NCBI RefSeq assembly: GCF_005576615.1 | Contig: NZ_CP040332.1 | Coordinates: 186,001-250,000 of the forward strand | Direction of reading: 5' to 3' | DNA length: 64,000 nucleotides | Origin: Natrinema versiforme | GTDB taxonomy: Archaea; Halobacteriota; Halobacteria; Halobacteriales; Natrialbaceae | Shown here: one piece after another, positions 17,403 through 36,740 of the stretch | Layout: every line of letters starts with the position of its first letter | Numbering within the stretch: the first letter of the stretch is position 1 | The notes under the pieces: generated by a model | Told to the model about the DNA's origin: nothing | What the model saw: only the letters and a program-made list of their open reading frames with translations | The model's database searches: none | Translations under genes and position numbers: made by a program

Positions 17403-17419
17403 GTTCCCCTATCGGGAAC
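17403..17419. promoter_or_regulatory. Palindromic operator-like site, motif 2
   Basis: GTTCCCCTATCGGGAAC is a perfect 6-bp inverted repeat around 5 bp, about 95 bp before the MFS start. It matches the site directly before the IclR gene at 36775 in 16 of 17 positions. Confidence 0.6.
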
Positions 17420-17513
17420 TCTGTCAGCCCTCGGAGCGTTTCGTCTTACCGTATTTGCTCCTAAATCTTCCTCAATCGAAATTCATAGGGTAGTCAAGCC
17501 GAAGGTGGGACAT

Positions 17514-18686
17514 GTGAACTCGCGTCATGCACACCGATCGCTGGCTCTCTGTACGTTAGCCTTCATGGTAACGATGGTCGCGCGACTGGCGATCAGTCCT
17601 CTGGTTCCAGCGATCACTGACGAATTTTCCGTCTCGAACGGTGCTGTCGGCTTAGCATTGTCACTTATGTGGGCGATGTACGCGCTCATGCAGTTTCCAA
17701 GCGGCGTCCTCGGCGAGCGGCTCGGAGAGCGGAAGGTGATTCTGTCCGCGATCGGGCTTACCGGCGTATCGAGTCTCTGTATCGCGATCGCACCGGCATA
17801 CGGTTTCTTCGTGCTCTTCGTCAGTGTTCTCGGCGTCGGCGCCGGCCTCCACTACACGGCCGCGACGACTTTTCTAGCGAAACAGTATGACGACATCGGC
17901 AGTGTAATCGGGATCCACGTCGCTGGAAGTCCAGCTGCGGGGCTTATCGCACCCGCTGCAGCAACGGGAATTGCCGTTCGGTATGGATGGCGGGCCGGAA
18001 TTTTACTCGGAACCGTAATGGCTGTGCCAGTTTTTTTCCTCTTTGCGAGCCGAATTCGGCCGACCAGCCCGGAACGACCCGACGAGCCACTGTGGAACCG
18101 GTTTACGTTCTCGACCGTCAGCGACCTTCTTGCGAAACCGTCTGTCGCTTTCACAACGAGTCTCGCGTTCCTCTGTGCGTTCACATGGCAGGCCACCGCG
18201 TCTTTCTTACCCACTTTCTTTACCGAGGGACAGGAACTCTCACCGGAAATCGCGAGCGGATTGTTTTCTCTGTACTTCCTCGTCCACGGGATAACACAGC
18301 CGGTGCTAGGATCTCTTTCGGATTATGCAGGGAGGAAACCGACTACTGCACTCTCAATGGCTGCGGGGGTAATCGGTTACGGCAGTATACTCGTCGGAGA
18401 TGGCCTCCCCGTCTACGCCATCGGTGTCTCCTCCATTGGTCTCGCTATGAGTTGGGGTGCGCCACTCCAGTCACGGCTCATAGACCTCTTCACAGAAGCC
18501 GATCGTGGCGCAGGATTCGGTCTCGTCCGAACGGTGTACATGGTAACGGGAGCATCTGGTAGCCTGGTCATCGGCCTGCTCGCCGACCTCTACGGCTGGA
18601 CCGTCTCATTCTCACTTCTCGCTGCAATCATGGGAGTGGTCCTCATCGCGCTCGGCAGTAATCGTCTGTTCAAACTCGGTCTCTAA
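17514..18686 (+). CDS. Major facilitator superfamily transporter 1 (organic acid carrier type)
   Basis: A 390-residue carrier with 12 predicted helices, an ACS/OFA-like MFS protein. It has GVLGERLGERKV (loop 2-3 signature), an internal repeat GSLSDYAGRKP and ending segments typical of sialate/hexuronate and organic-anion symporters. The GTG at 17514 is chosen over 17505: it gives the same length (390) and the same N-terminal spacing as the paralogue at 44294. Two operator-like palindromes precede it. It likely imports an organic or sugar acid with protons or sodium; the substrate is not decided by sequence. Confidence 0.85.
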   Translation: MNSRHAHRSLALCTLAFMVTMVARLAISPLVPAITDEFSVSNGAVGLALSLMWAMYALMQFPSGVLGERLGERKVILSAIGLTGVSSLCIAIAPAYGFFVLFVSVLGVGAGLHYTAATTFLAKQYDDIGSVIGIHVAGSPAAGLIAPAAATGIAVRYGWRAGILLGTVMAVPVFFLFASRIRPTSPERPDEPLWNRFTFSTVSDLLAKPSVAFTTSLAFLCAFTWQATASFLPTFFTEGQELSPEIASGLFSLYFLVHGITQPVLGSLSDYAGRKPTTALSMAAGVIGYGSILVGDGLPVYAIGVSSIGLAMSWGAPLQSRLIDLFTEADRGAGFGLVRTVYMVTGASGSLVIGLLADLYGWTVSFSLLAAIMGVVLIALGSNRLFKLGL

Positions 18687-18738
18687 CAGCTCTTGAGGTC
18701 TTCTTCCTCGAAGCACCGTCGACGATGTGTGTGATTTG

Positions 18739-18755
18739 ATTCCCCACTCGGGAAC
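18739..18755. promoter_or_regulatory. Palindromic operator-like site, motif 2, in a convergent gap
   Basis: ATTCCCCACTCGGGAAC lies between the 3' ends of the MFS carrier and a 2-hydroxyacid dehydrogenase. This is an unusual place for an operator. Confidence 0.4.
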
Positions 18756-18782
18756 GGCACTTCATCGGTAGTGAAGAGGACC

Positions 18783-19739
18783 TCACACGATTCGATTACG
18801 CATCTCCTCCCATTTATCAGCGGTGAACCGGTCGTAATTCTCTGCGAAGATCTCCGCACATCGATCCCAGTAGTGAGGCGTCGCACCGGCCATGTGAGGT
18901 GTGATGATTACATTCGAAAGGTTCCAGAGCGGAGAATCGGTGGGGAGGGGCTCCTCGGCCTGTACATCGAGTGCGGCACCGCCGATCTGTCCTTTTCGGA
19001 GGGCGTAGAGAAGTGCGTCTTCGTCGACGACCTTTCCCCGTCCGACGTTGACGAGCACGGCGTCGGGTTTCATCGAATCCAGCGCTCGCCCGTCGATAAG
19101 TCCTTCTGTTTCCGCCGTGAGCGGGCAGGCGATAACGACGTAGTCGGCCTTTCCGACAACCGTTAGCGTCTCGTCGGGACCGTAAACCTCCCGAACGTGC
19201 GATAGCTCCTCTGGGGTTCGTTTCGTTCCGATAGCGGTCATTCCGAGCGCGTCAGTAACCCTCGCAATCTCCTGTCCGATTTCACCGAGCCCGATGATTC
19301 CCACCGTTTTGCCCCGTAGCTCCCCTGCCCGATAGTGGCGCCATTCCCGTGCGTTCTGTCGTCGGATTCCTTCGTGGAGGTTCCGTTCAAATGTGAGCAT
19401 GTATCCGAGCACCTGTTCGGCTATCGGCACCGAATGGACACCGGATGCATTCGTGAGCACGATATCTTCCCGCTGGAGCTGATCGAGATCGTAGCTCCCG
19501 ACGCCAGCACTCAGCGCCTGGACCCAACGGAGTTTCTCCGCCGACTCTAGCAACGTCGAATCGAGTCGACGAGACACGACAATATCTGCCCTCGATATTC
19601 GGTCGAGAGCGTCGTTATAGTCGTTCGCTGTCTCGATTTCGATTGATTCGATGCGATCGCTGATCGCCGACGCGACATCGGACGGCGACCCCTGATGCGG
19701 AACCTGGTGGAGAACTAATACGTTGTGTTCGTTCGTCAT
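18783..19739 (-). CDS. D-isomer-specific 2-hydroxyacid dehydrogenase 2
   Basis: A 318-residue D-2-hydroxyacid dehydrogenase. The NAD motif is GIIGLGEIGQEIA (about 144-156). The catalytic residues are in NVGRGKVVDED (Arg), AEEPLPT (Glu) and ITPHMAG (His). It is related to the protein at 13338 and convergent with MFS carrier 1. It converts a 2-ketoacid and its D-2-hydroxyacid in the cytoplasm. The neighbourhood (carrier, TRAP system, UspA) suggests a role with an imported hydroxyacid. Confidence 0.9.
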   Translation of the reverse strand: MTNEHNVLVLHQVPHQGSPSDVASAISDRIESIEIETANDYNDALDRISRADIVVSRRLDSTLLESAEKLRWVQALSAGVGSYDLDQLQREDIVLTNASGVHSVPIAEQVLGYMLTFERNLHEGIRRQNAREWRHYRAGELRGKTVGIIGLGEIGQEIARVTDALGMTAIGTKRTPEELSHVREVYGPDETLTVVGKADYVVIACPLTAETEGLIDGRALDSMKPDAVLVNVGRGKVVDEDALLYALRKGQIGGAALDVQAEEPLPTDSPLWNLSNVIITPHMAGATPHYWDRCAEIFAENYDRFTADKWEEMRNRIV

Positions 19740-19916
19740 AGGTTATATTGAAGTGCCGTGTCTGTCTCGCTCGCATGCGATACCGTCTCGAGCACTCCAG
19801 GTAGCCTTTTCTGAGTACGACGACAAAATATTTTGGTTCGGTAGGGCTCCCGACAACCCTTCTGTGCGGTTCGTTCAACGCTCCGGTTCGGGCGACTCGC
19901 GTCGACTATCCGCCGG

Positions 19917-20357
19917 TCAGCCGATCAACGACGTCACCGGGCCGTCGAAGTTCAAAAGAACCGACTGAGTGGTGTCCCCGAACAGTACCTTGCCGGTCGG
20001 CGATCGCTTTTCGCCCGCGATAAAGACGTGATCACAGCCCAGTTCGTCGGCCTTCGCTAACACGTCGTCTGGGAGATCTCCGAACAGAACCTCGACCGTG
20101 TACGAGACGTCTTCGCCGAGGACCTCGTCTCCCAGTTCGGCCGTCGCCTCTCTCGCCCGCTTCGTCAGTTCGTCCACACTGTCGACGTCTCCCATGGAAG
20201 TCTGTGCTTTCCGCTGGAGGTCGCGTCCGTACTCCGACTCGTCGATCACGCGAAGGAGCACGAGTTCCGCACCGGAACCGGCAGCCATCTCCCCGGCAAT
20301 TTCAACCAATTCACGCCCTCTATCGGTCGGTTCAGCGATTATCAGCGCTCGGTCCAT
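19917..20357 (-). CDS. Universal stress protein UspA family 2
   Basis: A 146-residue Usp domain. It opens MDRALIIAEPTDRG, has DHVFIAGEKRSPTGKVLFGD as the G-2X-G-9X-G type nucleotide-binding end, and closes VLLNFDGPVTSLIG. It is divergent from TRAP system 2 (250 bp). It resembles the protein at 58296 more than the one at 866: both have SPxGKVLF and a LNFDG/LKFDG end. Role in the locus unknown. Confidence 0.85.
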   Translation of the reverse strand: MDRALIIAEPTDRGRELVEIAGEMAAGSGAELVLLRVIDESEYGRDLQRKAQTSMGDVDSVDELTKRAREATAELGDEVLGEDVSYTVEVLFGDLPDDVLAKADELGCDHVFIAGEKRSPTGKVLFGDTTQSVLLNFDGPVTSLIG

Positions 20358-20570
20358 ATCAACTCCTTGTTCGTAATCCCATAAACAATTTGTGTCCCGT
20401 GGGACCTATTCGGTATCGGCAACGCGGAACTCGCGCTCAATCGGGTCCGCAGGTAGCATTCGAACTAGCCAGTTTCTCCCGAAACCGGATATTCGTCTGC
20501 ATAGTTCGCCTTCACACGTACATTTCTATAAAAATAATATTGCATAATGGTCGTAATATTCTCTGCTGTC

Positions 20571-20583
20571 CAAAAACTATAAG
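20571..20583 (+). promoter_or_regulatory. TATA box of TRAP system 2
   Basis: AAAAACTATAAGT is centred about 33 bp before the ATG at 20610. It gives a short leader and supports that start over the GTG at 20583, which lies inside the box. Confidence 0.5.
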
Positions 20584-20609
20584 TGACATCACCAATACCG
20601 TCGATCTGT

Positions 20610-21623
20610 ATGAGTTTGGATAACATCCAGCGCAGGACAGTGCTCAAGAGGTCGGTGCTCGGTGCGGGGGTAGTCGGACTCAGCTCGCTTGCGGGTTGCA
20701 TCGGTGGCGGCAACGGCGGTGGTGGAAACACGATCACAATCGCGAGTTCGTACGAGTCGGACCACGTGACGGTACAGGCCGCCGATCGGTTCAAGGAGAT
20801 TGTCGAAGATGAGGCCGATGAGCTCACAGTCGAAGTCGTTCCCGGGGGGTCCTACGGTGGAGAGGGTGAAATCGCCGAACAGGTCAGGGAAGGAGCGATC
20901 CAGGCGCACGCAGACTCACGGTGGCCGTTCACACAGTACGCTCCCGAATACGAGTTCGTCAACATCCCGATCGTCTTCGACGACTTCGAACACCTGACCC
21001 GCGTTACCGAGAGCGAGGAGTTCCAGCCTGGTCTGGAACAGATCATCTCTGAGGGCAACCAACGAATGATCGGACAGTGGATCGACCGTGGGCTTCGACA
21101 CTTTACCTCTAATGAACCGGTCCGGGAACCGGCGGACGTTGAGGGAGTCGACCTCCGGCTGCCACCGTTAGACAACTGGGTCGCGATCTGGGAAGAGATC
21201 GGTGCCAATCCCACTACGGTCGCCCTCGACGAACTGTACAGCGCACTCCAGACTGGCACGGTCGGCGCTTCGGAGGGGGACATCCCACAGATCCACTCGT
21301 TCAACCTGAACGAAGTCCAGGATTACCTGAGCTACACTGGCCACCACGTTCAGGTCGGCGCGCTGTACATGAACGAGGACTTCTATCAGGGTCTCGATGA
21401 ATCCCATCAGGATCTCGTCGACGAAGCATCGAATCAAGCGACCCAAGAAATCTCTGAGAGCGTTCGGGATCAGATCAGTGAGATGGAGTCCGAACTCCAA
21501 GAGGGCGGAATGGAACTCATCGAAGACGTCAATCGAGAAGCGTTCAAGGACGCTGCCAGGCCAGTCGTCGAAAGTATGTTCGATGATTTCGCCGGTTCGT
21601 TAGATCAATGGCAAAGTATATAA
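20610..21623 (+). CDS. dctP: TRAP transporter substrate-binding lipoprotein DctP (system 2)
   Basis: A 337-residue binding protein with a twin-arginine motif (QRRTVLKRS, about 6-14) and a lipobox (SLAGC, about residues 27-31), so Tat-exported and lipid-anchored. The mature domain follows DctP1 closely, including GLRHFTSNEPVREPADVEG and LRLPPLDNWVAIWEEIGANP. The similar binding-site regions suggest the two TRAP systems import related acids. It starts the dctPQM operon (46 bp to dctQ). Confidence 0.92.
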   Translation: MSLDNIQRRTVLKRSVLGAGVVGLSSLAGCIGGGNGGGGNTITIASSYESDHVTVQAADRFKEIVEDEADELTVEVVPGGSYGGEGEIAEQVREGAIQAHADSRWPFTQYAPEYEFVNIPIVFDDFEHLTRVTESEEFQPGLEQIISEGNQRMIGQWIDRGLRHFTSNEPVREPADVEGVDLRLPPLDNWVAIWEEIGANPTTVALDELYSALQTGTVGASEGDIPQIHSFNLNEVQDYLSYTGHHVQVGALYMNEDFYQGLDESHQDLVDEASNQATQEISESVRDQISEMESELQEGGMELIEDVNREAFKDAARPVVESMFDDFAGSLDQWQSI

Positions 21624-21669
21624 GAAAAATTCAATAAGATAGAATACGAACGAACCCAACCAGTTTATT

Positions 21670-22215
21670 ATGGAAATTGACCAATCATTAGGGCTACGTC
21701 GAGAGTCACTGGTAGATCGTCTCGCCCTAGCGATAGCCGTCACTTTCTTTTTGGTGACTGTGGTGCTAGTAACGGTACAGGTAGTCCTTCGTCTGATAGA
21801 TCTATCAGTGACACTGGCGTGGACGGAACCGGCGGCCAGACTGGCCCTCGTGATCGGGACCTACTTCGGTGCGGCCGTCGCATCCCGGAATAACGAACAT
21901 ATAAGCATGGATATCGTGCTTCGGAAACTCGAGGAGAAGTATCCGAGAGTGAAAGCCGTCTTCGATCTCCTCGTTCGATTCATCGTCATTATCACGCTTT
22001 CTATCGTCGTGTTCGGACTGCTCCAGGGCGCACAGAGCTCGTGGAACAGTAACTGGGCGGACATCGATGCCGTGAACATCGGAATGGTGTATCTCGCGAT
22101 CGGTCTCGGGCTCACGTGGATGTTAGGGTACGAGCTATTCAAACTCAAAGAGTTGCTCTCCACGGTCTCGTTCGACCGAAAGACTCCACTCGAGGTGATT
22201 CAGAATGATAAGTAG
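21670..22215 (+). CDS. dctQ: TRAP transporter small permease DctQ (system 2)
   Basis: A 181-residue membrane protein with four predicted helices and the family pattern LAWTEPAARLALVIGTYFGAA followed by SRNNEHISMDIVLRKLEE. The N-terminus MEIDQSLGLRRESLVDRL is nearly the same as that of DctQ1. The next gene starts 93 bp downstream. Confidence 0.9.
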   Translation: MEIDQSLGLRRESLVDRLALAIAVTFFLVTVVLVTVQVVLRLIDLSVTLAWTEPAARLALVIGTYFGAAVASRNNEHISMDIVLRKLEEKYPRVKAVFDLLVRFIVIITLSIVVFGLLQGAQSSWNSNWADIDAVNIGMVYLAIGLGLTWMLGYELFKLKELLSTVSFDRKTPLEVIQNDK

Positions 22216-22308
22216 AAGTTCGACGCAGAGAGCGATATCGACCGTCGGAGTCTCACCCGTGAGAAGACGCGAAACGCTGACGGGTACCGCTGAGGAGGAA
22301 AGAGCGAA

Positions 22309-23622
22309 ATGATTACGATTCCGCTCCTCGACCCGGTGGTACTCGCAGTGTTGTTCCTCGGCATTCTGTTAGTACTGTACGGGATTGGGACGCCGATCGC
22401 GATTGCGATGCTCGCGACCAGTATCATTATGATGGCGCTCCCAACGGGGATCAATTTCAACTCGGTCATCATCAATAGCCGGCTGTTTAACGGAATCAAC
22501 AGCTTCGGTATGCTCGCGTTCCCATTCTACGTGTTACTTGGTCGGTTGATGAACACGAGCGGAATGACTGAGCGGTTGTTCGACTTCGCGTCCGCACTTG
22601 TCAGTCAGTTCCGAGGCGGGATCGTCTACGTTAACATCCTGGCCAGTATCATCTTCGCGGGAATGTCCGGCCTAGCTCTCGCCGACGCGGCAGGTCTCGG
22701 TCGCATTGAGTACGCGGTGATGCGCGATCACGGGTACGACAAAGATATCGCGATCGGGGTCACGGGATCCTCGTCGATGATTGGACCGATTATCCCACCT
22801 AGCGTTCCGATCATCCTCTATGCGATTCTGGCGGAACAATCGATTGGACAGTTGTTCCTCGGCGGAATCTTACCCGGACTCCTTCTGGGACTGCTGTTGA
22901 TGGTATTCGTGACCGTCATCATCTTCAAGCGGGGATACGAACGCGGCGATCCGTTCTCGCTGACACAAGTGATGTCGACGTTTAAAGAGGCGATACTGGC
23001 GATTTTCATTCCGGTACTCATAATCGGTGGTATCCTCGGCGGCTACTTCACGGCGACAGAGGCCGGTGCGATAGCGGTGGTATACGTCACGGTTCTGGCC
23101 TGCGTATTCGGCGAACTGAACCTGGGTGACTTTCTGGACGAGGCCCGAGACAGCATGGTCGAGACGTTCTCGCTCACCTTCATTATCGCATCGGCAACGG
23201 TCTACGGGTTGGTCGCCCTGCAACTTCGATTGCCGATGCTGCTCACGGACTGGGTGACATCCGTCTCGACCGACCCGACGACGGTCCTGTTTCTCATCTG
23301 CGCCCTGCTCCTCGTGATCGGGACCTTCATGAGCGTCACCGCTTCGATCACGATTCTCACGCCGTTGTTGATCCCAGTGATCGAGACCGTCGGAATCGAT
23401 CCGATTCACTTCGGGATCGTGATGGTGTTCACGCTGATGATCGGCGTCGTCACCCCGCCGTTCGGAGCGATCCTCTTCGTCCTCGAGAAAGTGACTGACG
23501 CGTCCCTTGAAGAGGTCATCCGCTCGATCATCCCCTACTACATTCCAATGGTCCTCGCAGTAATCATTCTCATCCTATTCCCTGAACTGGTCACGTATAT
23601 CCCGAACAACATCATGGGATAG
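22309..23622 (+). CDS. dctM: TRAP transporter large permease DctM (system 2)
   Basis: A 437-residue TRAP-T large subunit with about twelve helices. It has FPFYVLLGRLMN, GMSGLALADAAGLG, GSSSMIGPIIPPSVPIILYAI and the C-terminal GIVMVFTLMIGVVTPPFGAILF. It is closely related to DctM1 at 5358. It is the transport channel of the second tripartite system; 208 bp follow before the convergent Ldh2-type gene. Confidence 0.92.
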   Translation: MITIPLLDPVVLAVLFLGILLVLYGIGTPIAIAMLATSIIMMALPTGINFNSVIINSRLFNGINSFGMLAFPFYVLLGRLMNTSGMTERLFDFASALVSQFRGGIVYVNILASIIFAGMSGLALADAAGLGRIEYAVMRDHGYDKDIAIGVTGSSSMIGPIIPPSVPIILYAILAEQSIGQLFLGGILPGLLLGLLLMVFVTVIIFKRGYERGDPFSLTQVMSTFKEAILAIFIPVLIIGGILGGYFTATEAGAIAVVYVTVLACVFGELNLGDFLDEARDSMVETFSLTFIIASATVYGLVALQLRLPMLLTDWVTSVSTDPTTVLFLICALLLVIGTFMSVTASITILTPLLIPVIETVGIDPIHFGIVMVFTLMIGVVTPPFGAILFVLEKVTDASLEEVIRSIIPYYIPMVLAVIILILFPELVTYIPNNIMG

Positions 23623-23830
23623 GGAGCCATACCCTTCTCTCCGGAGACGCTGAGCGACCGACCCGGCCAGCCGCGGATATCCGTCACCGAGATGGTGGCC
23701 GCGAGTGAGCCGAGAGAACCAGCGATGGCGGGACCGTCCTCAGACTTCACTGACGCTCCGACGGAGAAAATTCATTTCCCGTTCTCGATTACGAGCGGAG
23801 TTAAACGACGGGTATAGTCGGACTAAGCCG

Positions 23831-24901
23831 TTAGCGAAACGCCGGTGGAAGCGCGTCCTCGACGTCACGGTCGGTCGCGACCGTTTCCAAGTTGTCCGCC
23901 ACTGCGTCTTCTATCGGAATCCCCTGATCACGGCGCTCTCGAGCGGTTCGGTGCTCCGGTTCTCCGGGGAGAATCACCTCACCGTCGTCGGCGATCGGTT
24001 CCGCCGACCGAAGGTACTCGATCAGCGCTTCGACCCGAATACTGATCGCTTCCCGGGTAGTAAACACCGATGGGTCGATCGCGAGGAACGCCGCTCCGTT
24101 ACCAGCCCAGTCCTGTGATTCTTTGGTGGAAACGGGACCGTCGCCGACGAGCGATGCGAACAACTCAGCCATGATGGCGAGCCCGAATCCCTTGTGTCCG
24201 GATTCCGTCCCGCCAAGCGGCAGGAGAGCTCCTACTTGGTCTTCGAAATCAGCGGCGTATTCGACCGGTTCGCCCGACTCTGTGATCGTCCACGCCGGCG
24301 GGAGCGTCTCCCCCGATCCGTCCCGTTCTATGATCTTTCCGTGGGCGACCTGGCTAGTCGCCCCGTCGTAGAGCAGATTGAAATCGAGAGCGTCGAACGT
24401 CGGCACGGCGAAGGTAATCGGATTCGTGCCTAAGCGTCTGTCCGCGGTCCCAGGCGGTGCTATCCGCTGGGCCCCGCCCTGAAGGTTGACCCACGAGGAG
24501 AAGAGCAATCCCTCGTCAGCGATCCGATCCGCCCACTCACCGATGCGACCGAGGTGGCCCGAGTTACGGATACCGACGACGCCGACGCCATGCTCGTTCG
24601 TAGTCTCGAGTAGCAGTTCGACGGCTCGGCGACCGGTCACTTGCCCGAACGCGCCGCTTCCGTCGATCTGGTGAAACAGTCCCGTCTGTTCAATGCTCGG
24701 CATCGCCGTCGGGTCGACCGTACCGGCGGCGATCTGATCAGCGTAGTATGGAAGCCGCACCACACCGTGCGAGGAGTGACCGACTAAGTCCGACGACACG
24801 AGCGAACGAGCGACGGTTTCCGCGATTTCAGGGGTCGCACCGGACGCCTCAATCGTGGCTCGAGCGAACGATTCGAGTGAATCTGGTTCAACAGTGAGCA
24901 T
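23831..24901 (-). CDS. Ldh_2 family NAD(P)-dependent dehydrogenase (malate/L-lactate/ureidoglycolate type)
   Basis: A 356-residue member of the Ldh_2 (MDH2/LDH2) family, which is unrelated in fold to classical LDH. Motifs in order are the catalytic His region SSHGVVRLPYY, GIRNSGHLGRIGEWAD, GTNPITFAVP, DGATSQVAHGK and GHKGFGLAIMAEL. Members reduce 2-ketoacids or oxidise (S)-2-hydroxyacids such as L-malate, L-sulfolactate, 2,3-diketogulonate and ureidoglycolate. A TATA-like box (TATAATTAA on the minus strand near 24930) precedes the ATG at 24901. It is divergent from the DHDPS-like gene. The substrate is probably a 2-ketoacid produced in this locus. Confidence 0.85.
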   Translation of the reverse strand: MLTVEPDSLESFARATIEASGATPEIAETVARSLVSSDLVGHSSHGVVRLPYYADQIAAGTVDPTAMPSIEQTGLFHQIDGSGAFGQVTGRRAVELLLETTNEHGVGVVGIRNSGHLGRIGEWADRIADEGLLFSSWVNLQGGAQRIAPPGTADRRLGTNPITFAVPTFDALDFNLLYDGATSQVAHGKIIERDGSGETLPPAWTITESGEPVEYAADFEDQVGALLPLGGTESGHKGFGLAIMAELFASLVGDGPVSTKESQDWAGNGAAFLAIDPSVFTTREAISIRVEALIEYLRSAEPIADDGEVILPGEPEHRTARERRDQGIPIEDAVADNLETVATDRDVEDALPPAFR

Positions 24902-25078
24902 CCGTCTTGTCCAATCAATCGGAGAGTATTAATTATACCGCCGCGCTCCGATAGCGTCCACAAATATAGAGATTAAAATAGCGTTTTAGTATGTTGATCT
25001 ATAGTAAGGGGTCCAGAGAAGAGGACTCAACACGCGTGCTGGCCCCTTTTCACGGCTGTCGATCGGACGATCCTACCA

Positions 25079-25090
25079 AATATTTATAAT
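25079..25090 (+). promoter_or_regulatory. TATA box supporting the GTG start of DHDPS-like gene 1
   Basis: AATATTTATAAT is centred 28 bp before the GTG at 25113. The transcript is therefore leaderless and begins at the GTG. Confidence 0.6.
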
Positions 25091-25112
25091 CCGGCCTTCC
25101 GAACCACTGTCT

Positions 25113-26054
25113 GTGCCGTATCAACAGCTTAAGTCCGACCTCCGAGGTGTCGCCTTTACAAATCCGACACCGTTCGACGAGGATGGAGACGAAATTCGAC
25201 ACGACGAACTGGCCGAAAACATTGATCACATCGTAGACGCCGGCGGATCGCTGGTGATTCCGTGTGGCAATACGGGCGAGTACTACTCGTTGACGAACGA
25301 CGAACGAGTGGCAGTCGTCGAGACCACAGTCGATGCAGTCGATGATCAGGGGTCCGTCGTCGGTGGCGTCGGCGGCAGTACGAAAACGGCGATCGAACTG
25401 ACGAACGCCTACGAAGCCGTCGGCGCCGATGCGGTGATGATCATGCATCCGGTACACACGTATCAGCACCAGCGCGGGCTCATCGACTACTATCGCGAGA
25501 TCATCGAATCGACCGACCTCGGCGTGGTGATCTACAAGCGAGGGCCGGAGGTCACGCTCGATCTGATTCGGGAACTCGCGACCTACGAGAACGTAGTCGG
25601 CGTTAAATACGCCGTCAACGACATCAACGGGTTCTCGAAGGCCGTCTCGACAACGGACGCAGACATCGTCTGGTCAAACGGGATCGCGGAACGGTTCGCA
25701 CCGTCATTTGCAATCGAAGGGGCGGAAGGGCTCACGACCGGGATCGGGAACTTCCTCCCCGAGGAAGTACTCGCGGTGATGGACGCGATCAGGGACGAAG
25801 ACTGGGAGCGAGTTCGTTCGCTGCGAGACTGTTTGCGCCCGTACGAGGACCTGCGAGAAGAGACCGGGAAGGACAACGACCTCGATGCGGCCAATAACGT
25901 GCCCGTCGTCAAATACGGAATGGAACTGGCCGGTCTCTACGGCGGCCCGATCCGCGAACCGATCGTGGAGCTAACCGAAGACGACAAACAGCGTGCCGAG
26001 CGCTACTACAGGAGCGTAAAAGACGAAATCGACAGCGGAATCGTCGCCCGCTGA
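25113..26054 (+). CDS. Dihydrodipicolinate synthase/KDG aldolase-family protein 1 (possible 5-dehydro-4-deoxyglucarate dehydratase)
   Basis: A 313-residue class I aldolase/dehydratase. The pyruvate-carboxylate motif GNTGEYYSLT (about 50-59), the Tyr of VVIYKRGP and the Schiff-base Lys of VVGVKYAVND are present, so it is catalytically complete. Related enzymes include KDG aldolase and 5-keto-4-deoxyglucarate dehydratase (decarboxylating to 2,5-dioxopentanoate). The latter fits neighbouring enolase dehydratases and the aldehyde dehydrogenase at 37588. The start codon is GTG, supported by the TATA box. Its paralogue lies 334 bp downstream. Confidence 0.85.
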   Translation: MPYQQLKSDLRGVAFTNPTPFDEDGDEIRHDELAENIDHIVDAGGSLVIPCGNTGEYYSLTNDERVAVVETTVDAVDDQGSVVGGVGGSTKTAIELTNAYEAVGADAVMIMHPVHTYQHQRGLIDYYREIIESTDLGVVIYKRGPEVTLDLIRELATYENVVGVKYAVNDINGFSKAVSTTDADIVWSNGIAERFAPSFAIEGAEGLTTGIGNFLPEEVLAVMDAIRDEDWERVRSLRDCLRPYEDLREETGKDNDLDAANNVPVVKYGMELAGLYGGPIREPIVELTEDDKQRAERYYRSVKDEIDSGIVAR

Positions 26055-27327: not shown

Positions 27328-27485
27328 AGACGGTTCGGTTCGAACGGGACAGCGCGGAAGCGACCGAGACGAGTTTTTCGACCGCGAACGCCGAGGCGTT
27401 TCGAGTCGATCGGTTGCGGACGGAGTTACGAGGACACCGACCGACCGCCCGAAAGCTTTAGCAGTCTGAAATAGCATGGGAAGAT

Positions 27486-29129: not shown

Positions 29130-29247
29130 CCGTTCTGCAGCATCGGCAGGGAACTGAACGGACCGTCGAACGGTCCAGAGGCTGCATTCGGTTGTCGTGG
29201 TTCGTGGAGTTATTTCAGTTCGTTCGATTACACGTTCCGCGATTCCT

Positions 29248-29264
29248 GTTCCCCACTGAGGAAC
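29248..29264. promoter_or_regulatory. Operator-like site, motif 2
   Basis: GTTCCCCACTGAGGAAC: GTTCC/GGAAC arms with 7 bp between. Confidence 0.5.
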
Positions 29265-29363
29265 ACCGAGTGGTGCTTCGATTGCTGATCCGGCTCGATT
29301 CCGGGAGAATCGGTCAGCCGACGGGATCGGGGAGCCGGTTCGGTCGCACTGCGATCACGATTG

Positions 29364-29380
29364 ATTCCCGATAGGGGAAC
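29364..29380. promoter_or_regulatory. Operator-like site, motif 2
   Basis: ATTCCCGATAGGGGAAC, TTCCC/GGGAA arms, lies 17 bp before the motif 1 site. Confidence 0.55.
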
Positions 29381-29397
29381 GGTGGCCAGCCATGAAC

Positions 29398-29417
29398 TTA
29401 CAAACGTATAGATGTAA
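29398..29417. promoter_or_regulatory. Operator-like site, motif 1
   Basis: TTACAAACGTATAGATGTAA, TTACA/TGTAA arms around a CGTATAG centre. Confidence 0.55.
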
Positions 29418-29527
29418 ACCAAGGGCAAACAGCTCTCGATCTACAATGGTACCGTTGTATATTCGTAGACACGATGGCCACCGTACCACCGGGTCATCCG
29501 ACGAGAGCGCAGCCCCTATGCCATATT

Positions 29528-29544
29528 ATTCCCCTATAGGGAAC
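29528..29544. promoter_or_regulatory. Operator-like site, motif 2
   Basis: ATTCCCCTATAGGGAAC is close to the site before the IclR gene at 36775. It lies 160 bp before the enolase-family gene. Confidence 0.55.
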
Positions 29545-29706
29545 GAAATGGGTCCCGTCTCGGTCCGAGACCGCGATGGGGTTTGATCAGCGATGGCGAT
29601 AGCCGTCGTCAGACAACGGATTACCACTTGCAGAGACATTCGTCCACGACGCCCTCTCGTGAAGGGGAGGAACAGGCTTATCAATTGAGACGAAGAGATC
29701 GGTACC

Positions 29707-30939
29707 ATGTACTCCGACTTCGCCGATCGGTTGGCGACGACCATGTGGCAGGACTTCGATCGCACGCCGTCACGAGAAGACAATCCCGCCGAAATTACTG
29801 ATGTTTCCACCGTCGTTGTCGACGGCAATTTCCCGTGGACGATCGTAACGGTCGAAACTGATACCGGTGTGACCGGGGTCGGCGAAGCGTATCCGTCACC
29901 GGGAGTCCACGAGGTGATCACGGACTATTTCGAGCCCGTCCTGCGGGGAGAGAACCCGCTGGACGTCGAACGACTGTACAACCTCATGCGGGCCAGTCTC
30001 TCCGGTCGAGGGTCCCAGCAGGGGATCGGGACCATTGCGATCAGCGGTATTGAACTCGCGCTCTGGGATACCGCCGGAAAGCTCCTCGATCAGCCGGTCT
30101 ATCAACTCCTGGGCGGGAAGATGCGGGACGAGGTTCGGATGTACGCCGACTGCCACGGCGGAGAGGGAATGGTCGCGGCCGCCCGCAACGACCAACGAAC
30201 CGAGACCTACGAAGCGGAGGCGTATGCGCGTTCGGCGCGCGACGCGGTCGACGACGGCTACGAAATCGTGAAGTTCGATCTCGACGTGCCGTCCGGCCGA
30301 GACATCGACACCCTCTCTCGTCACCTCGACAAACCGGAACTGGAACACAAGCGGCGCCTCGTCGAGGCCGTCACCGACGAAGTCGGCGACGAGGCCGAAG
30401 TCACGGTCGACCTCCACTGGAACCTCAGCGTCGAGGCGGCCGAACGGCTCTGTGCGATCCTCGAACCGTACGACCTCGCGTGGATCGAAGACCCGATCCC
30501 GCCGGAGAACGAGTCGGCGATGACGAGGTTGAACCGGAGCGTCGATCAACAACTGCTCACCGGCGAGAATCGCTACGGCCGACACGGGTTCCGCGACCTC
30601 GTCGAACGGCAATCGGTCGCCTTCGTCGCACCCGATATCCCGAAGACGGGCGGTATCGCCGAGACGAAGAAAATCGCCGAACTCGCGGAAACGTCCTACA
30701 TGACGCTCGCTCCGCACAACATCGGGAGCCCCGTCGCAACGATGGCGGGCGTCCACGTCGGCGCGTCGGTCCCGAACTTCCTCGGGCTGGAGTTTCACGC
30801 CCGCGACGTTCCGTGGTGGGACGACCTGGTCGACACCGATGAACCGCTCATTCGGAACGGATATATCGACGTTCCGGACGATCCCGGGCTCGGCATCGAA
30901 CTCGACTGGGATGTCGTCGAGACCCACCGCAAGCGATAG
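29707..30939 (+). CDS. Enolase-superfamily dehydratase 1 (mandelate racemase/galactonate dehydratase type)
   Basis: A 410-residue MR/MLE-type protein. An N-terminal capping domain (to about 130) with GVGEAYPSPG precedes the barrel. The barrel has an acid-base Lys in IVKFDLDVP, metal ligands in VDLHWN (Asp), WIEDPIPP (Glu) and TGENRYG (Glu), and a His in LAPHNIGSP. This is the pattern of D-galactonate- and aldonate-type dehydratases, which convert the acid to a 2-keto-3-deoxy acid with Mg2+. It is first in a run of sugar-acid genes to 35 kb and has four operator-like palindromes upstream. Exact substrate unknown. Confidence 0.88.
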   Translation: MYSDFADRLATTMWQDFDRTPSREDNPAEITDVSTVVVDGNFPWTIVTVETDTGVTGVGEAYPSPGVHEVITDYFEPVLRGENPLDVERLYNLMRASLSGRGSQQGIGTIAISGIELALWDTAGKLLDQPVYQLLGGKMRDEVRMYADCHGGEGMVAAARNDQRTETYEAEAYARSARDAVDDGYEIVKFDLDVPSGRDIDTLSRHLDKPELEHKRRLVEAVTDEVGDEAEVTVDLHWNLSVEAAERLCAILEPYDLAWIEDPIPPENESAMTRLNRSVDQQLLTGENRYGRHGFRDLVERQSVAFVAPDIPKTGGIAETKKIAELAETSYMTLAPHNIGSPVATMAGVHVGASVPNFLGLEFHARDVPWWDDLVDTDEPLIRNGYIDVPDDPGLGIELDWDVVETHRKR

Positions 30940-31017
30940 TCACACGCCGAGAGATGCCGGACGAGGTCGAGCAAACGACAGAAGATATATGTCACCACAT
31001 ATCACATCGGAGAACGA

Positions 31018-32184
31018 ATGCCACCGACTATTACGCGCATCGAATCGATAGAGTTCGCGTACGAACTGACCGACGTCGGATACAGTCCGAACGGCTTTAG
31101 CGTCGTCTACGAACCGGGGTCCTCGACCGAGCGACGGTTGTTCGCACTCCGCATTCACACGGACGAGGGGATCACCGGCGAGTACGTCGGTGGGAACTCG
31201 CCCGCGGCCGCACAGATAAACATGGTCGCCGACTACCTGATCGGCGAAAATCCGCTCGAGCGTGAGCGCCACTGGAGCGCGATGAAACGCGCCCTGCGAA
31301 AGTACGACTGGATGGGACTGGGGCCGCTGGATATCGCGCTCTGGGATTTCGCCGGAAAGTACCGAAACGCTCCGATCCACGAGCTACTCGGAACGTACCG
31401 CGAATCGTTTCCCGGCTACGCCTCGACGTATCAGGGAGACAAGAACGGTGGCCTGGATTCTCCGGCGGCGTTCGCCGATTTCGCCGAGGAGTGTCTCGAG
31501 ATGGGGTATCCGGCGTTCAAGATACACGATTGGGGCGGCAACTGGACCGACCCAGCGGAGACGGCCGAGGCGGTCAGGGCGGTCGGGGACAGGGTCGGCG
31601 ACCGGATGGACCTGATGCTCGACCCCGCCTGCGAGCCGTCGACTTTCGCCGACGCGCTGAAGATGGGGAAGGCCTGCGACGACGCGAACTTCCTCTGGTA
31701 CGAGGATCCGTACCGCGACGGCGGCGTTTCGCAGCACGCTCATCGGAAACTCAGACAGAAACTCGAGACACCGCTGCTACAGACGGAACACGTCCGAGGC
31801 GTGGAACCGCACGCGGACTTCGTCGCTGCCGAGGCGACCGATTTCGTCCGCGCCGACCCCGAATACGATGGGGGAATTACCGGTGCGATGAAGATCGCTC
31901 GCATCGCCGAGGGGTTTGGCCTGGACGTGGAATACCACGCGCCCGGCCCCGCCCACCGGCAGTGCCTCGCGGCGACGCGAAACAGCAACTACTACGAGGT
32001 CGCGTTGGTTCATCCGGACTGTCAGAATACCCAGCCGCCGGTGTACGCGAACGGTTACTCCGACTCGATCGATACGATCGACGGCGACGGCTTCGTTACC
32101 GTTCCGGACGGACCGGGGCTCGGAGTCGAATACGATTGGGACGAGATCCTCTCGCGCGAAACCGGACGACGAGTGTACGAATAG
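31018..32184 (+). CDS. Enolase-superfamily dehydratase 2
   Basis: A 388-residue enolase-superfamily protein, distinct from its neighbours. Barrel motifs are FKIHDWG (Lys-x-His), LMLDPACEP (Asp ligand), LWYEDPY (Glu ligand), LQTEHVRG (Glu ligand) and DVEYHAPGPAHRQ (His). The Lys-x-His pair and the second His suggest a different stereochemistry from enzyme 1. A TATA-like GATATATG lies at 30983-30990, about 30 bp before the ATG. It follows enzyme 1 by 78 bp on the same strand. Likely a sugar-acid dehydratase or epimerase of unknown substrate. Confidence 0.85.
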   Translation: MPPTITRIESIEFAYELTDVGYSPNGFSVVYEPGSSTERRLFALRIHTDEGITGEYVGGNSPAAAQINMVADYLIGENPLERERHWSAMKRALRKYDWMGLGPLDIALWDFAGKYRNAPIHELLGTYRESFPGYASTYQGDKNGGLDSPAAFADFAEECLEMGYPAFKIHDWGGNWTDPAETAEAVRAVGDRVGDRMDLMLDPACEPSTFADALKMGKACDDANFLWYEDPYRDGGVSQHAHRKLRQKLETPLLQTEHVRGVEPHADFVAAEATDFVRADPEYDGGITGAMKIARIAEGFGLDVEYHAPGPAHRQCLAATRNSNYYEVALVHPDCQNTQPPVYANGYSDSIDTIDGDGFVTVPDGPGLGVEYDWDEILSRETGRRVYE

Positions 32185-32391
32185 GTTCCTATCGGGACGG
32201 ACCGGTAATTCGGGGACAACCGTCGTGTAGACGCCCGGAAGGACACTGGATTCGAGACCCGGGACCGGTCAGTGGGGCTCGTCCCTGAATTACCGGACCG
32301 GCGCGAATTGCACGGTCACGACGGCAATCTCCCCGTCGTGGGATGAGTATGCTCCCGAAAAGCTTTAGGTCGCCTGTGAGTGGTACGACGT

Positions 32392-33465
32392 ATGAGCACT
32401 GAAGAGCGTCTGGGAGACGTTCGAGTCGGTGTCCGAACACGATCCCTTTCGGAGTCGCGGTTACAGTACGTCCGTCAGCTCGGTGCGACGGACATCTTCG
32501 TCGACCACGCCGATACGGAAGAAGAGCCCGACGCGTTCAACGATCGCGACGGATCCGATACCATCGCGGTCGGCCCGGATCAGATCCCGTCAGTCAGCGA
32601 ACTGACTGCCGCCCGCGAACGGGTGGAAGACGCCGGACTCTCGTTGACCGGCGTTCACTCGCTCCCGTACTCGATGTACGGCGATATCATGTTCGACCGA
32701 GACGGGGCGGACGAAGCGATCGACCAGATCTCGACGCTCATCCGGAACCTCGGGGAAGCGGACATTCCGATACTGGGGTATCAGTGGAACCCCCGGAGCG
32801 TCGTTCCCATGCGGACATCCCCGGTCGAAATCCGCGGCGAGGCCGAGGGAACCGCGTTCGACCTGGACGAACTCGACGACCCGCACGAGCTCGCACCGGG
32901 CCTCGACCGAGAGTACACCGAAGAGGAGTTCTGGGACAATTACCGGTACTTCCTTGAGTCGGTGCTCCCGGTCGCGGAGGAGGCCGGGGTCGACCTCGCC
33001 CTCCATCCGGTAGACCCGCCGGTTCTCGAATCCCTCGCTGGCATTCCGCGGTTGTTCCGCAGCGTCGAGAACTTCGAACGGGGAATGGAACTCGTCCCGA
33101 GCGATAACCACGGGTTGAAGCTCTGTCTCGGATGCTTCTCTCAGATGGGAGAAGACATCACTGACGTAATCCAGCGGTTCGGTAAGCGGGATCAGATCGT
33201 CTTCGTCCACTTCCGCGACGTCGTCGGAACGGTACCGGAGTTCCACGAAACGTTCGTCGATAGCGGGAACTTCGATCCAGCCGAAGCCGTTCGAGCGCTC
33301 AACGACATCGGCTTCGAGGGAGCAGTCCTTCCGGATCACGTTCCGGAGATGGTCGGCGACGATGACTGGCGACACCGCGCTCGCGGGTTCACCGTCGGAT
33401 ATCTCCGCGGCGTCATCGATACGGTTCGATCCGAACGGATTGGGCAGAGAGCCGAGACGGAGTAA
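32392..33465 (+). CDS. Mannonate dehydratase-like protein 2 (UxuA family)
   Basis: A 357-residue UxuA-family TIM barrel. Expected metal ligands are kept: His in ALHPVDPP, Cys in KLCLGCFSQ, His in FVHFRDV and Asp in VLPDHVPEM. The usual HPDDP reads HPVDP, whereas the paralogue at 9334 keeps HPDDP. It has an N-terminal extension and an extra acidic loop (about 165-185). A TATA-like AGCTTTAGG lies about 30 bp before the ATG at 32392. It sits between two enolase-type dehydratases, so it may act on another epimer of the same sugar acids, or as an epimerase. Confidence 0.83.
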   Translation: MSTEERLGDVRVGVRTRSLSESRLQYVRQLGATDIFVDHADTEEEPDAFNDRDGSDTIAVGPDQIPSVSELTAARERVEDAGLSLTGVHSLPYSMYGDIMFDRDGADEAIDQISTLIRNLGEADIPILGYQWNPRSVVPMRTSPVEIRGEAEGTAFDLDELDDPHELAPGLDREYTEEEFWDNYRYFLESVLPVAEEAGVDLALHPVDPPVLESLAGIPRLFRSVENFERGMELVPSDNHGLKLCLGCFSQMGEDITDVIQRFGKRDQIVFVHFRDVVGTVPEFHETFVDSGNFDPAEAVRALNDIGFEGAVLPDHVPEMVGDDDWRHRARGFTVGYLRGVIDTVRSERIGQRAETE

Positions 33466-33648
33466 TACCAAGCACATCTGGACGGTCCGGTCGACCAGCA
33501 CGGCTCGCGGCAGCGTCCGGAAGCGAAACCGTCAAAGAACTCGAGATGTGGCGACTTACGTCCCATCGGTCGAATACGCGTACGGCGCAGGTGCGACAAT
33601 TGCCGTACCAAACTTTATTAGATATCGTGCAGTGTATTGACACTACCC

Positions 33649-33750
33649 ATGGCATGCCCTCGATGTGACGTGAGTCAGAATAGGCCGTACGAACACCCCC
33701 AGTACCAGTGTGACGAGTGCGGTTACGTCCCGGTGCAGGGTGCAGATTAA
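33649..33750 (+). CDS. 33-residue zinc-ribbon microprotein
   Basis: A tiny acidic protein that opens MACPRCDVSQ and has two CxxC pairs, CPRC at residues 3-6 and CDEC at residues 21-24. They would bind one zinc as a rubredoxin-like knuckle pair. A TATA-like ACTTTATTAGA is centred about 33 bp before the ATG, so the gene has its own promoter. It lies between the UxuA-like and third enolase-family genes on the same strand. Small zinc-finger proteins of this kind are common in haloarchaea and several affect regulation or metabolism; this one's role is unknown. Confidence 0.7.
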   Translation: MACPRCDVSQNRPYEHPQYQCDECGYVPVQGAD

Positions 33751-33823
33751 ATCAGTGATACGTCCAACGATTACGTTGGTGAAACCCCACTACATCACGC
33801 CGCTATGCGGAGAAATGATCCGT

Positions 33824-33835
33824 AACTATTTAATA
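33824..33835 (+). promoter_or_regulatory. TATA box that decides the start of enolase-family gene 3
   Basis: AACTATTTAATA ends directly before an in-frame ATG at 33837. Transcription should start near 33857, so the second ATG at 33858 is the leaderless start. Confidence 0.6.
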
Positions 33836-33857
33836 GATGTCCGAAGGTGTGTCACGT

Positions 33858-35102
33858 ATGGACATCGCCCATGTAGATAGCTATGCATTATCATCGCCGA
33901 TCGATCCACCGCAAGACCGCTCGTTCCACGGCGGCACCCGACGGTTGAACAAGCGAGACGTCGTTCTCGTCGTTCTGGAAACGCGTGACGGGGAACAGGG
34001 ATTCGCTACCGCTGGTGCGAGTAGCTCCGCGATGCGCGAGTACTTCGAAGGCGACTCACAGGGAACGTTCGCCGACGTTCTCGGTGGTACCGTCGCCGAC
34101 GCGCTCGAGGGAGAGACGATCACCGAGGTGACCGACGCCCACGATCTGATCTCCGATACGAACCTTCCGGCACACCTCCAGACGGAGGCGATCTCGGCGG
34201 TCGACGTCGCATTGTGGGACCTCCGAGGAAAGGAACTTGGCACGCCCGTTTACGACCTGCTCACCGACGAATACGAGACGGAGCCGGCTGAGGAAATGCC
34301 GCTCTACGCCAGCGGCGGGATGTACATGGAGCCCGAAGGCTACGTCGAGCAAGCCGAGGTCCTCGAGGAGGAGGGGTTCTTCGGCTACAAGTATCGTCCC
34401 GGGATCGGACCGGACGGGGATCGGCGGACGGTCGAGCAGCTCGCCGCGGCGACCGACGAGATGGCGTTCATGCTCGACGTCCACACGTGGTGGAAGCTCC
34501 GGAGCTCGTACGGGGACGATACCGTTCAGAATCTCGTCGAACACGCTGCACGTGAAGGTGCGTTCTGGATCGAAGAACCGGTGGAGCCGGACGATCACGA
34601 GGGGTATACCTCATTAGCGGAGCACGGTGCACCGCTCGCGGGCGGCGAAAGCAAAGAGTCCCCGTCCGGGCTCGTCGAACTGGGAGAGACCGGTGCCGTC
34701 GACTTCCTTCAGGGCGACGTGCGGCATCACGAGGGGTTCTCGGGTTGTCGTCCTGCGATCGAGTTCTGTCGCGGTCGTGACGTCGAGTTCGTTCCCCATA
34801 ACTTCGGCACGTGGCTCGGACTGATCGCCAACGCCCATCTCGTCGCCGCAGCCCCGGAAGTGCGGCTGCTGGAGTATCCGGTCTTCGAAAACGATCCGAC
34901 GATTGACGGTCGACCCGATCCCGGCATGTATCCGTTCGAGCTCGCGTTCGATATTATCGACGGCGAACCGGACATCGATAACGGGATGCTGACCGTACCG
35001 GACGGACCCGGCCTCGGAGTCGATGTGAACCTCGACGTGATCCGGGACTACCCGTTCGCCGACGGACCGTGGACGGAGTTCCACTACGACGAGGACGAGT
35101 AA
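33858..35102 (+). CDS. Enolase-superfamily dehydratase 3 (glucarate/fuconate-like)
   Basis: A 414-residue enolase-superfamily protein. Motifs are YKYRPGIGPDG (Lys in the KxR position), MLDVHTWW (Asp ligand), WIEEPVEPDD (Glu ligand), AGGESKESP (Glu ligand) and VPHNFGTWLG (His). The KYRPG and HNFG pattern resembles MR-group sugar-acid dehydratases. The start is placed at 33858, where MDIAHVDSYALSSPI matches the family's first strand and the promoter requires it; 33837 is an alternative in frame. It is the third dehydratase of this class within 5.4 kb. Confidence 0.85.
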   Translation: MDIAHVDSYALSSPIDPPQDRSFHGGTRRLNKRDVVLVVLETRDGEQGFATAGASSSAMREYFEGDSQGTFADVLGGTVADALEGETITEVTDAHDLISDTNLPAHLQTEAISAVDVALWDLRGKELGTPVYDLLTDEYETEPAEEMPLYASGGMYMEPEGYVEQAEVLEEEGFFGYKYRPGIGPDGDRRTVEQLAAATDEMAFMLDVHTWWKLRSSYGDDTVQNLVEHAAREGAFWIEEPVEPDDHEGYTSLAEHGAPLAGGESKESPSGLVELGETGAVDFLQGDVRHHEGFSGCRPAIEFCRGRDVEFVPHNFGTWLGLIANAHLVAAAPEVRLLEYPVFENDPTIDGRPDPGMYPFELAFDIIDGEPDIDNGMLTVPDGPGLGVDVNLDVIRDYPFADGPWTEFHYDEDE

Positions 35103-35149
35103 CCGCCTCGAGGCGGCGGCGGTCAAACCGAAGGCTGTCGACTACTGGC

Positions 35150-36349
35150 CTACAGTTCTTCGCGGACCTGCTCGGCAACGTGCTCACCGAACGGAAGGGA
35201 ACACGTCAGCCCAGGTGAGACGGCGTTGAGCACGTGGAGGGAGCGTGGTCCGTCTTGGACCATCGGATCCTTCACCAGTTCGCCGTTTCCGTCGACGAGC
35301 TGAGCGCGTACACCGGCGTAACTGCGGACGAAATCCTGAGCGCGCGCCTCGGGGACGAGGTTCCGGGAGGCCTCGACGAACGCCTTCTTTTTGTATGATT
35401 TGTTCAACTCCTCCCACGCGACCTTCATCATTTTCGGCTCCATCATCAGCTTCCAAAACCCGCCGTAGCTGAGCACGTCGCGAAGTTCGCCGAGATCGAA
35501 CTCCGTATTCCGGTACGCCTCACGAGCGAACGCGAGCACTGCATTGGGACCGACGATGACCTTTCCGTCGGTTCGGCGCGTATAGTGGACGCCGAGAAAC
35601 GGCAATTCGGGGTCCGGCGTCGGATATATCATCGTGTTACAGAGGTGCCGGCGTTCGGGAACGAGTTCGTAGTAGTCGCCTCGGAAGGGGATAATCTGGT
35701 ACCCCGTTCCCACTCCGACTTCCGCGGCGAGCTTGTCGGCATAGAGACCGGCCGCGTTAACGAAGTAGTCGCCGTTGATCGCTCCCTTATCGGTCCGGAC
35801 CCGGACGTCGGAGGACGAGGCGGACACCGATTCCACGGTATGCCCCATGTAGAAGTCGACACCGGCGTTCTTGGCCTCTTTGGCGAGTTCATAGACGTAC
35901 TGCTGGGAATCGACGGACGCGGCCTCCGGACAGTACAATGCGGCGCGACCCTGCGCGTGAGGCTCGCGCTCCTCAAGCTCTTCCGAGCCGATGATTTCGG
36001 TCTCGACTCCATTGGCGTCGGCCTGTTGCTGAATCGACGATAGCCGGCGCTCTTCGGCGGCGGTAGTAGCGACGACGACGACGCCGAACTCCCGAAGGGG
36101 GATATCTCGTTCGTTCGCGTACGCTTTCATCCGAGTCGTCCCTTCGGTAGCGAACCGCGCCTTCGTGGACCCCGGTTCATAGTTGAAACCGGGGTGAAGA
36201 ACACCGGAGTTCCGCCCGCTTTGATGTGCGGCGAGCCGGTGTTCCTTTTCGACCAGAGCGATGTCCAGTTCGCGGTCTTCCGCGAGATGTTTCGCGGTCG
36301 AACAGCCGACACAGCCGCCGCCGACGATAACGATATCGTACTTGGGCAT
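35150..36349 (-). CDS. lhgO: L-2-hydroxyglutarate oxidase-like FAD protein (LhgO)
   Basis: A 399-residue FAD oxidoreductase of the DAO/LhgO group. The N-terminal dinucleotide motif is VIVGGGCVGCSTAKHL, followed by the LhgO-type SGRNSGVLHPGFNYEPGS and, near the C-terminus, SYAGVRAQLVD and NAVSPGLTCSLPFGE. LhgO oxidises L-2-hydroxyglutarate to 2-oxoglutarate and feeds electrons to the membrane quinone pool. 2-Oxoglutarate is also the proposed end product of the oxidative uronate route here. The gene is divergent from IclR 2; a motif 1 site at 36534 and a motif 2 site at 36724 lie between them. Confidence 0.87.
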   Translation of the reverse strand: MPKYDIVIVGGGCVGCSTAKHLAEDRELDIALVEKEHRLAAHQSGRNSGVLHPGFNYEPGSTKARFATEGTTRMKAYANERDIPLREFGVVVVATTAAEERRLSSIQQQADANGVETEIIGSEELEEREPHAQGRAALYCPEAASVDSQQYVYELAKEAKNAGVDFYMGHTVESVSASSSDVRVRTDKGAINGDYFVNAAGLYADKLAAEVGVGTGYQIIPFRGDYYELVPERRHLCNTMIYPTPDPELPFLGVHYTRRTDGKVIVGPNAVLAFAREAYRNTEFDLGELRDVLSYGGFWKLMMEPKMMKVAWEELNKSYKKKAFVEASRNLVPEARAQDFVRSYAGVRAQLVDGNGELVKDPMVQDGPRSLHVLNAVSPGLTCSLPFGEHVAEQVREEL

Positions 36350-36533
36350 ACCACACGATTGCCGTTCTAAGTAGTAAAACTGACGACTGTCTCGCGATAG
36401 GCAATCCGTGACTCGTACAGCTCGAATTCGGCGCGAATAGTTTCGGATGCCGCTCCGGAAACGCGCCCACCGTTTCTGGACGCACCCCTCTCCCTACCGG
36501 CGATGATCGGTCTAGTTCCCGTCTACCGAATGC

Positions 36534-36553
36534 GTACAACCATATGATTGTAA
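36534..36553. promoter_or_regulatory. Operator-like site, motif 1
   Basis: GTACAACCATATGATTGTAA lies between divergent lhgO and iclR genes, 185 bp before lhgO. Confidence 0.6.
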
Positions 36554-36723
36554 TTTATTCTCGAGGGCGCGGGTAAGTATTACGCCAAGCAGGGATTTGT
36601 GAGATCAGATAGCGGCGATAAGTATCGTTGCTGAGAACGGGCGAATGATCCGGAGAAATCCGCGCTCATGCCTAATCTCGAGCGGGAATACGAGGTCCCA
36701 GTGGGTCCGTGTCAGCCCGAGAA

Positions 36724-36740
36724 GTTCCCCTACCGGGAAC
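36724..36740. promoter_or_regulatory. Operator-like site, motif 2, next to the IclR 2 TATA box
   Basis: GTTCCCCTACCGGGAAC is a perfect inverted repeat. It ends exactly where the TATA-like GATTTATATG (36741-36750) begins. The ATG is at 36775. A protein bound here would control the regulator's own promoter. Confidence 0.7.

Follow-up and report, generated by a model that had tools for sequence, protein, structure and literature searches.

A palindrome abutting the TATA box as the predicted operator of an IclR-family regulator of haloarchaea

The 17-base palindrome GTTCCC-N5-GGGAAC (motif 2) was analysed in a 64,000-nucleotide stretch of DNA from Natrinema versiforme, referred to here as the window, and in related genomes. 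Motif 2 is very probably the operator of IclR2, an IclR-family regulator encoded in the window, which would repress its own gene from a site beside the TATA box and control a dehydratase operon and an MFS transporter gene from sites further upstream, with a second palindrome, motif 1, serving a separate co-regulator. The evidence for the operator consists of the sites, their conservation, their position, their linkage to iclR2 and their covariation with the recognition helix; from it we infer binding by IclR2, the sign of regulation, the effector and the binder of motif 1.

The iclR2 gene (36775–37548, forward strand) encodes a protein of 257 amino acids with HTH_IclR and IclR_C domains. The Pfam profiles PF09339 and PF01614 gave 43.0 bits (cut-off 22) and 130.2 bits (cut-off 24), and with relatives in the PDB such as 1mkm they make the IclR family assignment clear; the scores for the NCBIfam equivalogs BhcR (152.5 of 350), KdgR (130 of 275) and PcaR (126.3 of 284.75) were below their cut-offs. 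The palindrome GTTCCCCTACCGGGAAC (36724–36740), the predicted proximal operator, is followed by AGA and then by TTTATATG, and the ATG at 36775 lies 34 bp away. The TATA box was assigned from the sequence as TTTATA (36744–36749, forward strand), and downstream of the palindrome only TTAT forms a strongly conserved block. The original prediction placed the end of the palindrome exactly at the TATA box, which is off by 3 nucleotides, and the gap at 36741–36743 is the expected position of the BRE.

With up to two mismatches allowed, motif 2 has 13 matches in the window, where shuffled sequence would give 3.7. The form RTTCCC-N5-GGGAAY occurs six times in the complete genome (4.67 Mb, 5 contigs), and all six sites lie on the contig of the window within 19.5 kb (window positions 17210, 17403, 18739, 29364, 29528 and 36724), a crowding with a probability of about 1e-12 under uniform placement. 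The reversed pattern, used as a control, gave 0 matches genome-wide. The six coordinates originally given for motif 2 were all correct, but the exact sequence GTTCCC-N5-GGGAAC stands only at 17403 and 36724; the sites at 18739, 29364 and 29528 start with ATTCCC, and that at 29248 (GTTCCCCACTGAGGAAC) has one arm mismatch. Two copies had been overlooked, one at 17210–17226 (ATTCCCGAGGAGGGAAC) and a weak distal one upstream of iclR2 at 36515–36531 (GTTCCCGTCTACCGAAT). The PWM scores, which are partly circular because the matrix was trained on some of the scored sites, were 16.6 and 12.7 for these two, 23.0 for the exact consensus GTTCCCCTATCGGGAAC before the MFS transporter gene (17403–17419), 20.8 for the site at 18739–18755, and 23.5, 19.1 and 18.8 for the sites at 29248–29264, 29364–29380 and 29528–29544, which precede enoA by 443, 327 and 163 bp; the fixed position of the operator is independent of this training. 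Some strong sites stand at places where a promoter would not be expected, namely the one at 18739–18755, which lies between convergent genes, and those at 8449 and 8959 of locus L070 (genome G008), downstream of enoC. These may be left over from rearrangements or may serve a transcript that is not annotated.

Orthologues of iclR2, 60–76% identical, were found in about ten haloarchaeal genera, the further ones being Haloterrigena, Natrialba, Halovivax, Halopenitus, Natronoglomus, Halomicroarcula, Halocatena, Haloarcula, Halogranum and others. Autoregulation through the site at 36724 had been proposed, with conservation before orthologous genes chosen beforehand as its check, and the proposal was borne out: motif 2 stands at the same place relative to TATA before 22 of 23 orthologues, with diverged flanks. 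The mean information across the 23 was 1.19 bits per column in the palindrome compared to 0.15 in the 30-bp upstream flank, giving a consensus of GTTCCC....GGGGAACA...TTAT. As these orthologues share ancestry, nominal p-values make them look more independent than they are. The palindrome lies 34 bp before the ATG in all six relatives with 70–76% identical regulators, and its distance from TATA is constant even in orthologues with a more distant ATG. The Natronoglomus orthologue has lost the left half-site. Many orthologues have a distal motif-2 site 150–410 bp upstream, and the palindrome also precedes a second iclR2 copy in genome G011 and a frame-interrupted copy in G015. The latter (G015:C1:22164-22933) is broken into two overlapping pieces in different frames, with the palindrome (at −34 bp) and the sites at enoC retained. 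Paralogues of iclR2 carry other palindromes or none at the pre-TATA position, and motif 2 was absent from the closest non-orthologues (L033–L036, 45–51% identity). Motif 2 travels with iclR2 orthologues across genera despite changing neighbours.

Other haloarchaeal IclR genes, intended at first to serve as a negative control, proved to bear palindromes of the motif-2 class. A weak first test for perfect 6-bp inverted repeats found them before 11 of 38 IclR genes and 7 of 38 controls. The exact pattern RTTY-N9-RAAY (17 bp) within 85 bp of the start was present at 24 of the 38 IclR genes compared to 12 of 266 control windows; because this consensus was chosen after viewing the first set, it was retested on a fresh class-wide sample that includes a few iclR2 relatives (L162, L166), where it was found at 29 of 65 IclR genes compared to 11 of 321 control windows (3.4%). 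Most of these sites lie at −46 to −59, just before TATA. Their inner bases vary by regulator, with GTTCC accompanying the helix HSKST, GTTTG accompanying RSKG and GTTCA accompanying many PKS helices. Among 39 redundancy-reduced pairs, covariation with z > 5 linked helix residue 46 to position 4 of the site and helix residue 50 to position 6 (256 combinations tested, 0 of 500 permutations). In two IclR proteins, L033 and L081, a similar recognition helix goes with a site that is degenerate or of another sequence. Covariation of this kind is expected where an operator is recognised by the product of its own gene, and together with the class-wide pre-TATA palindromes it marks motif 2 as the predicted operator of one IclR subgroup.

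The survey also brought out further palindromes. The RSKG-helix genes L034, L035, L154 and L184 carry GTTTG-N7-CAAAC, which in L034 and L035 is doubled before TATA, the two palindromes overlapping or lying side by side. At L122, L135, L138, L145, L150 and L171 the pre-TATA position is taken by a second operator-like class, TCCGG-N5-7-CCGGA (e.g. GTCCGGTATTATCGGAC). In the host, the paralogues L020 (G000:C2 near 1858900) and L007 (G000:C4 near 370500) carry, at about −45, the palindromes GTTCCATATAGCGGAAC and GTTCCCCTAGAAAGAAC; being related, these could allow cross-talk with IclR2.

The operon behind the three upstream sites begins with enoA (29707–30939), an enolase-superfamily sugar-acid dehydratase with MR_MLE_N/C domains that is galactonate dehydratase-like, below the NCBIfam cut-off. 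It is followed by enoB (31018–32184; Pfam and NCBIfam profiles), a gene for a UxuA-like protein of the mannonate dehydratase family (32380–33465; PF03786), which is a frequent neighbour of iclR2 in relatives, and enoC (33837–35102), with enoB and enoC also encoding enolase-superfamily dehydratases and all four genes on the forward strand. The region also encodes two aldolase/dehydratase proteins of the DHDPS family, a TRAP transporter, hydroxyacid dehydrogenases and a 2,5-dioxovalerate dehydrogenase (NCBIfam NF052305, above cut-off), and as judged from sequence the gene set fits a sugar-acid pathway to 2-oxoglutarate. The triplet of motif-2 copies originally noted before the operon was confirmed, and three also precede the orthologous enoB of genome G022 (89% identical to window 31018–32184), where enoC follows 2.7 kb on and the contig differs from that of iclR2. 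Two sites precede enoC in G013 and G015. In the scan of relatives, for which a Markov null gives 2 matches per Mb at a score of at least 15, strong sites also stood close to a gene for a TPP enzyme in G025, G021 and G011. Orthologues of enoC occur in 6 of 61 genomes, all 6 of which have iclR2 (p = 5e-7 across the 61 genomes and 6e-5 within the genus). Comparable sites were absent from 11 other enoA and 12 other enoB orthologues outside these clusters. Assignment of targets by pairwise identity alone failed; where a genome lacks iclR2, its enoA orthologues have no sites, and the sites are therefore not a property of the enzyme genes.

The MFS transporter gene (17505–18686, forward strand; PF07690) is a probable further target, with motif-2 sites at −102 and −295. 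Sites of this type were not found before its 77% identical orthologue in G013, so the link may be specific to this genome. Before the gene, a stretch of about 1.2 kb (15900–17100) contains no convincing genes, appears by eye A+T-richer than its surroundings and may be degraded coding sequence.

If iclR2 is transcribed from a leaderless start at its ATG, the operator would span about −51 to −35 and abut or overlap the BRE. A dimer bound there would exclude TFB and TBP from the promoter, which makes negative autoregulation the likelier mode; a repressor site overlapping BRE/TATA is known to block TFB/TBP (PMC6085418). From sites 100–460 bp upstream, IclR2 would also regulate the enoA-enoB-uxuA-enoC operon and the MFS transporter gene, most likely as an activator with a sugar-acid-derived ligand. 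Activation of the operon is likelier because its sites, 163–443 bp upstream, are too far away to block the promoter, and it is also likelier by analogy with XacR, GacR, RhcR and MscR (PMC11519228, PMC6995148). A model in which the DNA loops with fixed helical phasing was discarded, since the spacings of motif 2 (93, 116, 153–155, 164, 167, 173, 193, 198, 222 and 363 bp) share no phase.

The closest comparison is with XacR (HVO_B0040) of Haloferax volcanii, a haloarchaeal IclR-family protein of xylose and arabinose catabolism that activates its own pathway and negatively regulates its own synthesis (PMC6995148). Its pathway likewise has a dehydratase and a 2,5-dioxovalerate (alpha-ketoglutarate semialdehyde) dehydrogenase, although the pathway genes are not those of the iclR2 region. 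The xacR promoter has a semi-palindromic negative element (PMC6085418) that is reported to cover the WW (−10) motif downstream of TATA, while the iclR2 palindrome abuts BRE/TATA from upstream. GacR, RhcR and MscR of Haloferax and Haloarcula are haloarchaeal IclR activators of sugar catabolism, and MscR is encoded in the cluster under its control (PMC11519228). In bacteria, the operator of IclR group 1 is a 17–18 bp palindrome, GKTYCRYW3-4RYGRAMC, and its members, such as GenR of Corynebacterium glutamicum (ATTCC-N7-GGAAT), combine autoregulation with control of adjacent operons (PMC8222616). Motif 2 is likewise a 17-bp palindrome with GTTC...GAAC ends, almost the same as the GenR site, and its consensus from the 23 orthologues (GTTCCC....GGGGAAC) fits all ten outer positions of the group 1 operator, with position 6 and its mirror (C/G, not purine) as misfits. 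It differs in that its copies lie 90–460 bp apart rather than as 18–22 bp tandems, and in being locked to an archaeal TATA box. TrmB VNG1451C of Halobacterium activates or represses according to where its site lies with respect to BRE/TATA (PMC4158304), but this protein belongs to another family and its motif, TACT-N7-8-GAGTA, is neither motif 1 nor motif 2.

Motif 1 is also palindromic, TACA-N4-TA-N4-TGTA, and has the form TACA-N4-TAT-N3-TGTA in the window, where it starts at 13210, 17119, 29399, 29442, 36535, 51392 and 51547. Copies precede the MFS transporter gene (TACAACGGTATGGATGTA, 17119–17136), the enoA operon (TACAAACGTATAGATGTA, 29399–29416, with a second copy at 29442–29459) and iclR2 (TACAACCATATGATTGTA, 36535–36552), where orthologues often have a pair about 36 bp apart. 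Its co-occurrence with motif 2, as originally noted, holds in the window and extends to relatives: with up to one mismatch, 30 of 40 motif-2 clusters have a motif 1 no more than 450 bp away, compared to 3% of background windows, and it was found in 3 of 179 other gene upstream regions. Of 66 other IclR loci, 38 carry motif 1 irrespective of the operator there, compared to 1 of 27 unrelated loci. Across 116 genomes of Halobacteria it occurs 579 times compared to 75 for the reversed pattern, and its count follows the number of IclR genes (Spearman 0.65, and 0.85 in the family of the host; partial rank correlation 0.42 after genome size), with a mean of 0.6 copies in IclR-free genomes compared to 10.2 in those with ten or more IclR genes. 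Genomes rich in motif 1 include G099, G148, G127 and G142. TrmB was ruled out as its binder, as the TrmB motif differs.

This association of motif 1 with IclR loci and IclR gene number, and the two half-site arrangements shown by bacterial IclR proteins (PMC8222616), would agree with motifs 1 and 2 being two binding modes of one IclR protein. We consider that doubtful, as exact motif 1 is absent from the IclR-rich genomes G113 (16 IclR genes), G081 (10) and G041 (8), which speaks more for a separate factor than for a site intrinsic to IclR, and a single motif-1 sequence is kept by regulators with very different recognition helices. Motif 1 most likely binds a separate co-regulator common to many IclR-controlled operons. 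A broader reading, in which every haloarchaeal IclR regulon combines its own TATA-locked 17-bp palindrome with motif 1 read by one global co-regulator, is held tentatively, and we lean slightly against it; there the helix would set the inner bases of the palindrome, motif 1 would often stand in tandem about 36 bp apart and the co-regulator would gate all the operons.

The reading of motif 2 itself also has competitors. IclR2 bound just upstream of the BRE might recruit TFB and TBP to its own promoter as Ptr2 or TFB-RF1 do, and archaeal activator sites are indeed found upstream of BRE/TATA (PMC4158304, PMC6737238). Such autoactivation appears unlikely, for the right half-site lies within 3 nucleotides of TATA, which would make the dimer and TFB rivals for the BRE, and autorepression, as reported for XacR, is the usual IclR mode. 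The replicon holds several IclR genes, and one of their products, e.g. IclR1 (encoded at 10468), might bind motif 2 and control both iclR2 and the operon; this is very improbable given that motif 2 follows iclR2 orthologues across genera, that site and recognition helix covary and that motif 2 is absent from the upstream region of IclR1 itself. Isolated exact copies whose spacers are rich in G+C do occur in many genomes without iclR2, as chance palindromes in G+C-rich DNA would, but for the sites described here the genome-wide count, the clustering and the conserved position refute chance, to which we give next to no weight. Motif 2 as the IclR2 operator is therefore the preferred reading.

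To our knowledge, few archaeal IclR operators have been mapped. Autoregulation by an IclR protein is of a known kind, predicted here in a variant geometry, and what goes beyond routine is a class-wide set of TATA-locked operators with a readable helix code and a constant partner element. From the position of the palindromes and the covariation between helix and bases, one could predict operators for many haloarchaeal IclR proteins that are still uncharacterised, and the constant presence of motif 1 points to a factor shared by the sugar and sugar-acid regulons of haloarchaea. Should these readings be confirmed, it would become possible to assign pathway genes to their regulators and to build orthogonal inducible promoters.
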